Under the pieces are notes generated by a model that worked only from the letters and a program-made list of their open reading frames with translations, searched no databases and was not told the DNA's origin. DNA of 64,000 nucleotides from positions 186,001-250,000 of the forward strand of contig NZ_FMUH01000002.1 of the NCBI RefSeq assembly GCF_900101025.1. Reading direction: 5' to 3'. Below are positions 3,661 through 6,917 of the stretch, piece after piece. The DNA is from Klenkia marina (GTDB lineage: Bacteria; Actinomycetota; Actinomycetes; Mycobacteriales; Geodermatophilaceae). Position 1 is the first letter of the stretch, and each line of letters starts with the position of its first letter. The translations under genes and the position numbers were made by a program.

Positions 3661-3682
3661 CCCGTTCGTCCCGCACCGACGG

Positions 3683-3718
3683 CCGGCCCCCTCCACCAGA
3701 TCTGGTGGAGGGGGCCGG
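3683..3718. terminator. Terminator hairpin after glyA (bidirectional)
   Basis: A perfect 36-base palindrome with arms of 18 bases (ccggccccctccaccaga and its complement) lies 22 bases after the glyA stop and about 75 bases beyond the stop of the convergent repeat-protein gene. There is no T-tract, as usual in high-GC actinobacteria. It could serve both converging transcripts. Confidence 0.8.
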
Positions 3719-3791
3719 ACTCGTACGCCCCCTGGTCGGTGCCGGGGGTGGCCCGCCGTCCCGGGTCAGGGGGACGGCGGGCCCGGTGCCG

Positions 3792-5315
3792 TCAGGCGGC
3801 CGAGCGGCGACGGCCGGCCAGCGCGAGGCCGAGGCCGCCGGCCAGCGCCAGCAGGCCCAGGCCGAGGGCGTCGGTCACGTCGGCGCCGGTGTAGGCCAGC
3901 GTCGAGGGTGATGACGACGCCGCGTGGACCGTCGTCCAGCCGGCGGAGTGGCTGACCGCCGGGGTGGCACGCTGCACCGGAGCGGCAGCGGCCGGGTGCT
4001 CGGCGGCCGCGGGCTGGATCACCGGGTGGGCCGGGGCCGGGGCCGCGGGGTGGACCGGGGCGGCCGGCTGCACCGGGTGGGTGGGCGCGGTGGCCGACGG
4101 GCACGGGGTGCCCGAGGACGACGCACAGGCGTTGCCGCCGGTCACGTCACCGCTGGTGACCGGGCTGACCGAGGCGTCGCCGCCCTTGCCCCCGGGGGAG
4201 TTGTTCGTGATGGTGCTGGTCGCGGTCGAGCTGCAGTGGTTGTCGCCCTTGTAGGCGAAGCAGATGACGTAGGAGGTCACCGGCGCGCCGACCACCGAAC
4301 CGCCCTTGCCGCCGTTGCCGCCCAGGGCGAGTCCGGCGTTGTCCACCTGGTGCCCGTGGACGCTGCCGGACGCGTTGGTGGACGAGTCGACCCAGGTGTG
4401 AGCACCGCCGTCACCCGACATCCCCCACAGTCCGCCGCTGAGCCAGTGCAGGAACTCGCCGAGGGCGAGGGACTCGGCGCTGGCGGTGGTGCTGCCGCCG
4501 CCGTTGGCCGACGCGTTGCCACCCGAGACGTTGCCCGAGGTCACCGGGCTGACCGAGGCGTCGCCACCGTTGCCCCCGGGGGAGTTGTTCGTGATGGTGC
4601 TGGTCGCGGTCGAGCTGCAGTGGTTGTCGCCCTTCCAGGCGAAGCAGATCGTGCCGGAGGAGACCGGTGCGCCGAGCACGTCCCCGCCGTTCCCGCCCTG
4701 GCCGCCGGCTGCGACCCCGAGGTTGGTGACCTCGTGGCCACCGGCGGTGGCGGAGGCGTCGGTGGACGCGTCCACCGAGGTGAGGGCACCGCCGGTGCCG
4801 CCCGGGCTGGTCGCCGCCACCGCGTCCGTCGCCGGGGCGCCACTACCACCACCGGCCCCGACCGACTCGGAGGTGGCGGTCACGTCGCCGCCGCCGTCGG
4901 CACCGGCGTTGCCGCCCGTGACGTCGCCGCTGGTGACCGGTGAGACCGCAGCGCTGCCGCCGTCGCCGCCGGCACCGGTGTTCGTGACCGTGCTCTCGGC
5001 CGACGAGGACGCCGTGGTGTCCCCGTGCACCGAGCCGGCGACGACGCCGCTGGAGACGGGGGCCTGGACGACGGACCCTCCGTTCCCCCCGGCGCCGCCG
5101 ACGGCGATGCCGGCGTTGCCGACCTCGTGCCCCTCGGCGTAGCCGTCGGCGTTCGTGGAGGTGTCGACCTCGGTGACCGCGGGCCCACCCACGGACTCCG
5201 AGCTGGCGGTGGTGGTGGGGGTGCCCTCGTCCGCGGAGGCGACCGCGGAGCCGAGCAGGAAGATCCCCCCGGCCATGGTGGCGACGGCGAGGCCGTTGCG
5301 CACAGTTCGGTTCAT
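3792..5315 (-). CDS. Secreted repeat protein with LAXTG-type cell-wall anchor
   Basis: 507 residues. Residues 1-28 form a signal peptide ending SAVASA. Then come three tandem ~130-residue units (about 48-165, 177-300, 305-400), each with GH(E/Q)V(x)N(x)G, a Gly/Asn run, (Q/G)APV(S/T)S and SPVTSG(D/N)V(T/S)GGNA. Units 2 and 3 also carry a CFA(W/Y)KGDNHC cysteine pair that unit 1 lacks. A Pro/Ala-rich stalk of ~70 residues leads to LAYTG (473-477), a hydrophobic helix and RRRSAA. LAXTG is the signal of class E sortases, which replace LPXTG sortases in many high-GC actinobacteria. The likely role is a wall-linked surface or aerial-structure protein; the function is unknown. It is not a canonical chaplin or rodlin by eye. 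Part of the repeat is nearly identical at DNA level. Confidence 0.85.
   Translation of the reverse strand: MNRTVRNGLAVATMAGGIFLLGSAVASADEGTPTTTASSESVGGPAVTEVDTSTNADGYAEGHEVGNAGIAVGGAGGNGGSVVQAPVSSGVVAGSVHGDTTASSSAESTVTNTGAGGDGGSAAVSPVTSGDVTGGNAGADGGGDVTATSESVGAGGGSGAPATDAVAATSPGGTGGALTSVDASTDASATAGGHEVTNLGVAAGGQGGNGGDVLGAPVSSGTICFAWKGDNHCSSTATSTITNNSPGGNGGDASVSPVTSGNVSGGNASANGGGSTTASAESLALGEFLHWLSGGLWGMSGDGGAHTWVDSSTNASGSVHGHQVDNAGLALGGNGGKGGSVVGAPVTSYVICFAYKGDNHCSSTATSTITNNSPGGKGGDASVSPVTSGDVTGGNACASSSGTPCPSATAPTHPVQPAAPVHPAAPAPAHPVIQPAAAEHPAAAAPVQRATPAVSHSAGWTTVHAASSSPSTLAYTGADVTDALGLGLLALAGGLGLALAGRRRSAA
4161..4265 (-). repeat. Direct DNA repeat, copy 1 (inside repeat-protein gene)
   Basis: About 105 bases nearly identical to 4545-4649, offset by 384 bases (128 codons). 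It encodes the CFAYKGDNHC...TITNNSPGG...SPVTSG stretch of repeat unit 3. Only a few third-position and Trp/Tyr changes are visible. Confidence 0.9.
4545..4649 (-). repeat. Direct DNA repeat, copy 2 (inside repeat-protein gene)
   Basis: The partner of 4161-4265, encoding CFAWKGDNHC...TITNNSPGG...SPVTSG of repeat unit 2. The DNA identity is higher than among other parts of the protein repeats, which suggests recent duplication or gene conversion within the gene. Confidence 0.9.
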
Positions 5316-5516
5316 GACTGCGTTCCTTGTCGCTGGTGTGCGTCGTTGCGCACGAGCTGGTGGTGCGGGATGGGTGGCGCAGGGTGGAGCGGTCGTGAGC
5401 CCCCGTGGCGGCTGTGGACCCGTGGAGCGGCGCTGCCGAGTTCTGCTCGGGACGAGCGGGGCGTGGCGCGGTGCGGTGATCCGGGCTGGCCAGGCCGGGA
5501 AGGGATCGCCCGCCGT

Positions 5517-5539
5517 GGTGTGCCCCCCGTGGGCACACC
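5517..5539 (-). terminator. Terminator hairpin after secreted Ser/Thr/Pro-rich gene
   Basis: ggtgtgccc and gggcacacc form a perfect 9-bp stem with a 5-base loop, 31 bases past the stop of the 5571-6716 gene. The rest of the 255-base gap (5316-5570) holds the leader of the repeat-protein gene, with an SD-like aaggaacg before its ATG. I see no clear -35/-10 pair. Confidence 0.6.
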
Positions 5540-5570: not shown

Positions 5571-6716
5571 CTAGTCGGGGCGGGAGCCCGGGTCGTCGTC
5601 GGCGTCGACGACGGCTGCCACGGCGGCGGTGACGCACGCGGTGGCGCTCCCGGCCCGGTGGGCGGGGAGGTCTGCGGTGAGGACGGCGGTCGGCGCGCCG
5701 GGGCCCGTGGCGGTGCGGCCCGCGCCCGAGCCGGTCGAGCTGCCGCAGGGCGCGGGGACGGCGACGGGGGCCTCCGGGCTGCCAGGAGCCGGCAGCGGAT
5801 CGGGGGCGCCCGGCGTGACGGGGACGTCGCCCGCGGCGGATGCCACCGGGTCCGCGCCGGCCGGCACCACCAGGGTGGGGCGGGTCGGTCCCGCCGGGCC
5901 GACCGCCGGTCGCGGGGCACCGGCGGCGCGGGGGGCGCGGCTGACGGCGGGGACCTCCGAGCCGCAGGCCGGGCCGGTGCCGATCGTGCTGACCGGGACG
6001 GTGACCGCGCCGGGGCCGGCCACCGGCTCGGGCCCCACGGCGCTGACCGGCGCGGACCTGGGGACGGCGGTGGCCGTCGTCGCGGTGGTGGCCGAGCCGG
6101 CACCGGCCGACGCCGTGCCGGAGGTGTCGACGGGCCCGGTGACCGGAGCGCCGGGGGGCGTGGTGGTCGTGCTGCCCGACCCGCTGGTGTCGCTCGTGGT
6201 GCGGCCGTCGGTCGTCCCGTCGCCGGCCGACGTGGACCCGGCCACGGCCGCGTCGCTCCCCGCGGACGTGCTGGTCCCGGAGGACTCGGAGGTGGACGCG
6301 CCGCCGGTCGCGGAGGTGGTCGCGGAGGCGGTCAGGGCCGGGTCGGGGGTCGGTGCGCCGTCCGGGGGTGCGGGGTCCCCGCCGGCTCCGGTCGTGTCCT
6401 CGGGTGTCGACGCGGCGTCGCCCTGGGCGGCGGTCGTCGTGGTCGCCGGACCGGGGTCGGCGAACGGTGCCTCCGCGGCCGACGGCTCGGTGGCCCGTTC
6501 GCTGGCCGACGTGGTCGTGACGTCGTCGGCGGGCGGGGCCTCGGTGACGGCGGTCGGCGTCGTGCCGCCTATCTCGTCGGCCGACGCGGTGCCGGTGAGG
6601 ACGAGGAACGCGCCCACCGCACCGAGGCCGAGGGCGGCGCCGGCGACGACGCGACGCACCCACGGCTGACCCTGGGACGGCGTTGCGCCGTCGGCGGGGA
6701 GGTCGGCCCTGGGCAT
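5571..6716 (-). CDS. Secreted Ala/Thr/Pro/Ser-rich low-complexity protein
   Basis: 381 residues from an ATG chosen because it places a classical signal peptide at the N-terminus (WVRRVVAGAALGLG...TGTASA, cleavage after about residue 46). A longer in-frame start at 6851 would bury the signal. The mature part is low complexity, rich in Thr, Ala, Pro, Ser and Asp, with no recognisable domain, no sortase motif and an acidic C-terminus (DADDDPGSRPD). It lies immediately upstream of the LAXTG repeat-protein gene on the same strand, 255 bases apart and separated by a hairpin. Function unknown; possibly an extended cell-envelope or matrix protein. Confidence 0.7.
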   Translation of the reverse strand: MPRADLPADGATPSQGQPWVRRVVAGAALGLGAVGAFLVLTGTASADEIGGTTPTAVTEAPPADDVTTTSASERATEPSAAEAPFADPGPATTTTAAQGDAASTPEDTTGAGGDPAPPDGAPTPDPALTASATTSATGGASTSESSGTSTSAGSDAAVAGSTSAGDGTTDGRTTSDTSGSGSTTTTPPGAPVTGPVDTSGTASAGAGSATTATTATAVPRSAPVSAVGPEPVAGPGAVTVPVSTIGTGPACGSEVPAVSRAPRAAGAPRPAVGPAGPTRPTLVVPAGADPVASAAGDVPVTPGAPDPLPAPGSPEAPVAVPAPCGSSTGSGAGRTATGPGAPTAVLTADLPAHRAGSATACVTAAVAAVVDADDDPGSRPD

Positions 6717-6917
6717 GCGGCGAAAGCTAGGAGCCCAGGCGGCCTCACGGCCAGGTTCCGGTTCGGATCCGCGCCGGAACGGCGTCACGTCGGCGAGTTG
6801 ATGGACGGAACGTTCCGACTCGGTCACTCCGCGTACGAGGGTGGGCAACAAGTGTGACCGGTGCCACCATGGGTGGTATCACCGCGGGGGACGGGACGGA
6901 CGTGCTGGGAGCGGCAC

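Follow-up and report, generated by a model that had tools for sequence, protein, structure and literature searches.

The stretch of the Klenkia marina genome analysed here (64,000 nucleotides, hereafter the window) encodes a 507-residue protein with three tandem repeat units, which is probably a hydrophilic, disulfide-clamped surface brush or adhesin anchored by a class E sortase (SrtE) and encoded in a two-gene cell-envelope locus of the Geodermatophilaceae. The gene is present as one copy only in the Klenkia genome (4.22 Mb, 14 contigs), and its features are collected in Table 1 together with those of the adjoining leader and upstream gene.

Table 1. Features of the three-repeat protein locus; positions are those of the window.
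Feature	Position	Strand	Basis
Gene of the putatively LAYTG-anchored three-repeat protein	3792..5315	(-)	ORF, 507 aa
Signal peptide, residues 1-28 (MNRTVRNGLAVATMAGGIFLLGSAVASA)	5232..5315	(-)	sequence and relatives
Repeat unit 1, residues 35-148, without cysteine	4872..5213	(-)	hmmsearch unit profile and Cys count
Repeat unit 2, residues 165-279, Cys pair 224/233	4479..4823	(-)	unit profile and Cys count
Repeat unit 3, residues 290-406, Cys pairs 352/361 and 397/405	4098..4448	(-)	unit profile and Cys count
Predicted short helix in the linker of units 2 and 3, residues 285-296 in GEFLHWLSGGLW	4428..4463	(-)	linker sequences and low-confidence AlphaFold helix
Pro/Ala/His-rich stalk, residues 407-472	3900..4097	(-)	sequence
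Sorting signal (LAYTG, hydrophobic segment, RRR), residues 473-507	3795..3899	(-)	sequence
Second hairpin, GTGCG-CAACGA-CGCAC, directly before the ribosome-binding site	5338..5353	(-)	sequence
Conserved hairpin element GGTGTGCCCACGGGGGGCACACC, 23 nt, 35 nt past the upstream gene stop	5517..5539	(-)	cross-genome scans and leader comparison
Upstream secreted Thr/Ser/Pro/Ala-rich (mucin-like) protein, ending ...DPGSRPD	5571..6851, start codon uncertain	(-)	ORF

Architecture of the three-repeat protein

The repeat is visible in the DNA itself, where self-comparison yields three in-register copies of 282 nt, spaced 384 and 393 nt and with 80% and 66% identity to the reference copy. At the protein level, an hmmsearch profile of the unit scores units 1, 2 and 3 at 74, 95 and 110 bits, respectively; because 3 of the 24 units from which this profile was built come from the window protein, independent support for the repeat is provided by the DNA copies and the relatives. 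All of these agree with the three units proposed in the initial annotation, with a core of about 115 residues and a period of about 128-131 residues. The stalk and the LAYTG-helix-RRR end described there are likewise found in the ORF, the stalk being rich in Pro, Ala and His, and LAYTG occupying residues 473-477, followed by a hydrophobic stretch and by RRR near the C-terminal end. The signal peptide is kept across the family and ends in ...AVASA-DEG, and its A-x-A pattern suggests cleavage after residue 28. The cysteine pairs first noticed in units 2 (CFAWKGDNHC, Cys 224/233) and 3 (CFAYKGDNHC, Cys 352/361) are present and unit 1 has none, but the pair C397/C405, which closes unit 3, had been overlooked. 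The helix predicted between units 2 and 3 overlaps the start of the unit 3 profile match, and the mature protein is hydrophilic (GRAVY -0.10), with a Gly/Ser/Thr/Ala composition.

Neither the Pfam nor the NCBIfam scan of the 507-residue protein matched any family, and a profile search of the PDB returned a TetR regulator as its best match (E=0.55), that is, no relative of solved structure. The chaplin model PF03777, searched against the protein up to E=10, gave no match either, so the earlier view of a repeat without a known family match still stands for these databases. Membership in the NCBIfam LAXTG small-protein model NF058583 was rejected, as its match (E=0.015) covers the sorting signal only and reaches 15 bits against a cut-off of 65.

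The Klenkia repeat family and its locus

Within the genus, every other near-complete genome (7/7) has one orthologue (the one genome without a match, G008, is 73% complete). Matches to the unit alignment were obtained in Klenkia brasiliensis, K. taihuensis, K. soli, K. terrae, Klenkia sp. PcliD-1-E and Modestobacter sp. Leaf380, and together these account for six of the seven relatives in the genus. Querying the named genomes with only the window protein gave no relative; the six were reached with a unit alignment that included a K. brasiliensis sequence. The eight genus proteins carry 3 (window), 4, 4, 4, 5, 5, 6 and 6 units and share a strict cysteine rule, in which the first unit has no cysteine, inner units have one pair, and the last unit has one pair followed by another at its end or slightly beyond (8/8 proteins). 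Since the cysteine-free first unit is kept in all eight, it is a rule rather than a quirk of the window protein. In every one of them units 2 and 3 are separated by a hydrophobic segment of the FLxWL or a related type (GEFLHWLSGGLW in the window protein), and the unit has the conserved motif V-x-C-F-N-Y-K-S-x-N-N-C. The Klenkia CFxYKxxNxC repeat family is defined here by the unit profile, the cysteine rule, the segment between units 2 and 3 and the pmbA-side locus, all of which the window protein shows (its own sequences being part of that profile). Mean unit identity is 64% inside one protein against 44% between species, which fits a repeat evolving in concert. The repeat-profile search suggested earlier gave 0 matches in 395 other genomes sampled across Actinomycetota; judged by sequence, the CFxYKxxNxC repeat was found only in the genus Klenkia.

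The surroundings of the gene are conserved as well. Two genes that we take to be pmbA and tldD, named from family knowledge, adjoin the orthologue in 7/7 relatives, and a presumed glyA does so in 6/7. Between the convergent glyA and three-repeat protein genes, a long palindrome at 3680-3722 of the window (GGCCGGCCCCCTCCACCAGATCTGGTGGAGGGGGCCGG) is probably a shared terminator, lacking a T run. On the other side, a same-strand ORF ending in ...(R/P/S)PD precedes all 21 genes with the leader element, the window gene included; its full-length examples combine a signal peptide with a Thr/Ser/Pro/Ala-rich body. The window copy matched no family in a Pfam scan. This upstream protein is kept at the locus across genera, and it is only the fixed neighbourhood that ties it to the repeat protein.

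In two further Geodermatophilaceae genera (g11 and g12), the proteins have a near-identical signal peptide (MNRSVRNGLAIAGMAGG...) and sorting signal (QLAYTGAE...), and between them quite different Asn/Gly/Asp-rich repeats, including NNAxAGNG-type ones, which cannot be aligned with the Klenkia unit. In most of these proteins the cysteines sit in the last third of the sequence that precedes LAYTG; L103 and L104 are exceptions with a pair close to the middle, and a masked protein also has earlier ones. Because the Klenkia unit profile matched none of the repeats of relatives outside the genus, homology is claimed for the frame only, and the link between genera is drawn from the signal peptide, sorting signal, partner gene and hairpin element that they have in common. 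Tandem family genes in two or three copies were also observed in other Geodermatophilaceae genomes (L098, L099, L100, L097 and L037). Altogether, a two-gene locus with rapidly changing repeats recurs across the Geodermatophilaceae, and appears undescribed.

The conserved hairpin, GGTGTGCC(C)ACGGGGGGCACAYC, lies 34-38 nt after the upstream ORF stop in 21/21 genes, that of the window included. A family-wide scan found its 23-nt form at 16 sites in 15 of 112 genomes (reversed control pattern, 0), each directly upstream of a family gene by coordinates, with the gene start masked in G073; among 397 order-wide genomes a single further site turned up, which belongs to another family and has two mismatches. 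In the window genome, the Klenkia form has one exact copy. Read as a stem, 97.7% of alignment cells pair, and one pair changes from UA to CG in 2 of 11 distinct sequences; the covariation score was matched by 26 of 500 shuffles, making RNA stem covariation suggestive but not proof. Stem pairing is not decisive here, because a palindromic DNA site would look alike, and the element may be a terminator, an RNA leader or an operator. A CRP-type operator was set aside, since the arm spacing varies between genera. Rfam gave no match at the element; its one match in the leader search, to a microRNA and spurious, fell on the palindrome that separates the convergent genes. In the alignment of relatives, the second hairpin is represented in other genera by GCGCGTCAC...GTGACGCGC-type stems with changes on both sides, as judged by eye.

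Probable class E anchoring and competing readings

The initial annotation had made its reading depend on a class E sortase, and the Klenkia genome encodes a single one among its five sortase matches (G000:C14:178123-178545; NF033747, 254 bits, cut-off 160). Neither of the two results named there as refuting, a hit to a known repeat family or a genome lacking this sortase class, was obtained. Of the others, one class F sortase exceeds the class F cut-off (181 vs 166 bits) and three class F-like sortases fall under it (164, 118 and 81 bits). Class E sortases take LAXTG (PMC5148588), and the three-repeat protein combines the N-terminal signal peptide, C-terminal LAYTG, hydrophobic helix and basic tail of such substrates. 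On these sequence features, Klenkia very likely attaches it to the cell wall. Elsewhere in the same genome, outside the window, no fewer than five additional proteins (L053-L058) end in LAXTG or a similar L-x-x-TG tail, one of them with IPT/TIG-like and one with RCC1-like repeats by eye. A 417-residue LAYTG protein outside the window (L052:358-1611, contig C14) has several VDVPVxxCGNGIGLLG chaplin-like repeats; it reaches 27 bits with PF03777 (cut-off 21), has a mature GRAVY of +0.27 and is, by sequence, a chaplin-like long protein. A genome-wide PF03777 search returned nothing, though L052 carries this domain; as that scan missed L052, its blank is not taken as absence.

An unlikely alternative is a disordered wall protein without a folded repeat, to which matrix or polysaccharide could hold at the surface of the cell or zoospore. 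It would follow SspA of Actinoplanes missouriensis, an SrtE-anchored, disordered protein required for rigid sporangia, for which AlphaFold gives no fold (PMC13293333). The Gly/Ser/Thr/Ala composition fits, as does the AlphaFold run that the initial annotation had suggested, which was carried out on one and two units and proved uninformative. The pLDDT was 41 for two units (16-row alignment) and 37 for one unit (24-row alignment), values obtained on shallow, low-complexity alignments, where failure is weak evidence of disorder. In the two-unit model the Cys motif has strands on either side and FLHWL is helical, whereas the one-unit model arranges them otherwise, and neither was relied on because of this difference. 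Against disorder, the invariant cysteines, the conserved unit motif and the unit periodicity favour some fold; moreover, SspA is far shorter, with no tandem Cys repeats reported, and is thus set apart from the Klenkia protein by description.

More improbable still is an amyloid-like or beta-solenoid fibre former whose alternating small and polar repeats polymerise into surface fibrils. A fibre had been suggested in the initial annotation, and the idea is in keeping with the alternating V/T and N/G repeats of the window protein and the NNAxAGNG-type repeats of its relatives. The PDB search offers it no structural match, AlphaFold produced no confident solenoid, and covalent wall anchoring makes polymerisation unnecessary.

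Least probable is a hydrophobic coat like that of chaplins or of CwpA/CwpB, SrtE-anchored and water-repellent and aiding morphogenesis. The same sortase class and sorting signal speak for it; against it are the lack of a PF03777 match and the hydrophilic mature protein. GRAVY is negative in the relatives too (-0.06 to -0.76 overall), ranging from -0.06 to -0.43 within the genus and falling below that in the two other-genus proteins measured, in contrast to the positive value of L052. Chaplin membership was dropped on the same grounds, with L052 as the control that does match PF03777. Of the fibre or coat suggested at the outset, a sortase-anchored surface protein is retained by sequence, and the hydrophilicity argues against a hydrophobic coat. 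The long chaplins ChpA-C of Streptomyces (PF03777) share with the Klenkia protein a signal peptide, Cys-containing repeats, LAXTG and, presumably, a class E sortase, but the Klenkia protein lacks GN-motif repeats and is hydrophilic, and the chaplin-like L052 is a separate protein. CwpA/CwpB of A. missouriensis (PMC13251363) are hydrophobic with no such repeat described, and are set apart by these descriptions. The best account is a hydrophilic repeat protein displayed on the wall that works like other class E substrates and is not a chaplin.

Proposed mode of action and significance

Architecture, conservation, gene neighbourhood, the presence of the sortase and hydrophilicity are observed; for the hydrophilic brush or adhesin that we favour, the anchoring, disulfides, partner and role that we infer are as follows. 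The protein would be exported by Sec and cut after ASA-28, whereupon the single class E sortase would link LAYT|G to peptidoglycan, with the Pro/Ala/His stalk crossing the wall and the Gly/Ser/Thr/Asn-rich units forming a hydrophilic brush outside, either beta-rich or partly disordered. Wall-proximal units would be held by one or two disulfides, leaving the cysteine-free outermost unit flexible, although the Cys pairs could serve a non-disulfide purpose, such as metal binding or redox. The FLxWL-type segment between units 2 and 3 would be the likely contact site, touching the cell surface itself, some adjacent molecule or the upstream mucin-like protein. By elimination, the protein would most likely serve in adhesion, aggregation or the conditioning of surfaces in soil and rock biofilms, with the number of repeats (3-6) setting the reach.

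Characterised class E sortase substrates are very few, those known for Streptomyces being only ChpA-C according to PMC13293333 and those of Actinoplanes dating from 2026, and a literature search found no paper joining the Geodermatophilaceae, a family of soil and rock surfaces, with sortases. More speculatively, and only as a tentative proposal, the locus may be a fast-diversifying surface system of the family, in which mucin-like and SrtE-anchored proteins cooperate, the signal and sorting parts are fixed, the displayed repeat is replaced as a whole from genus to genus, and an RNA or DNA hairpin specific to the locus controls expression or relative dose. With its fixed frame, interchangeable displayed repeat, constant partner gene and near-invariant, locus-exclusive leader element, the locus offers a clear target for studying surface construction and its regulation in this family, and it shows that anchor and signal can be kept while the exposed part turns unrecognisable.
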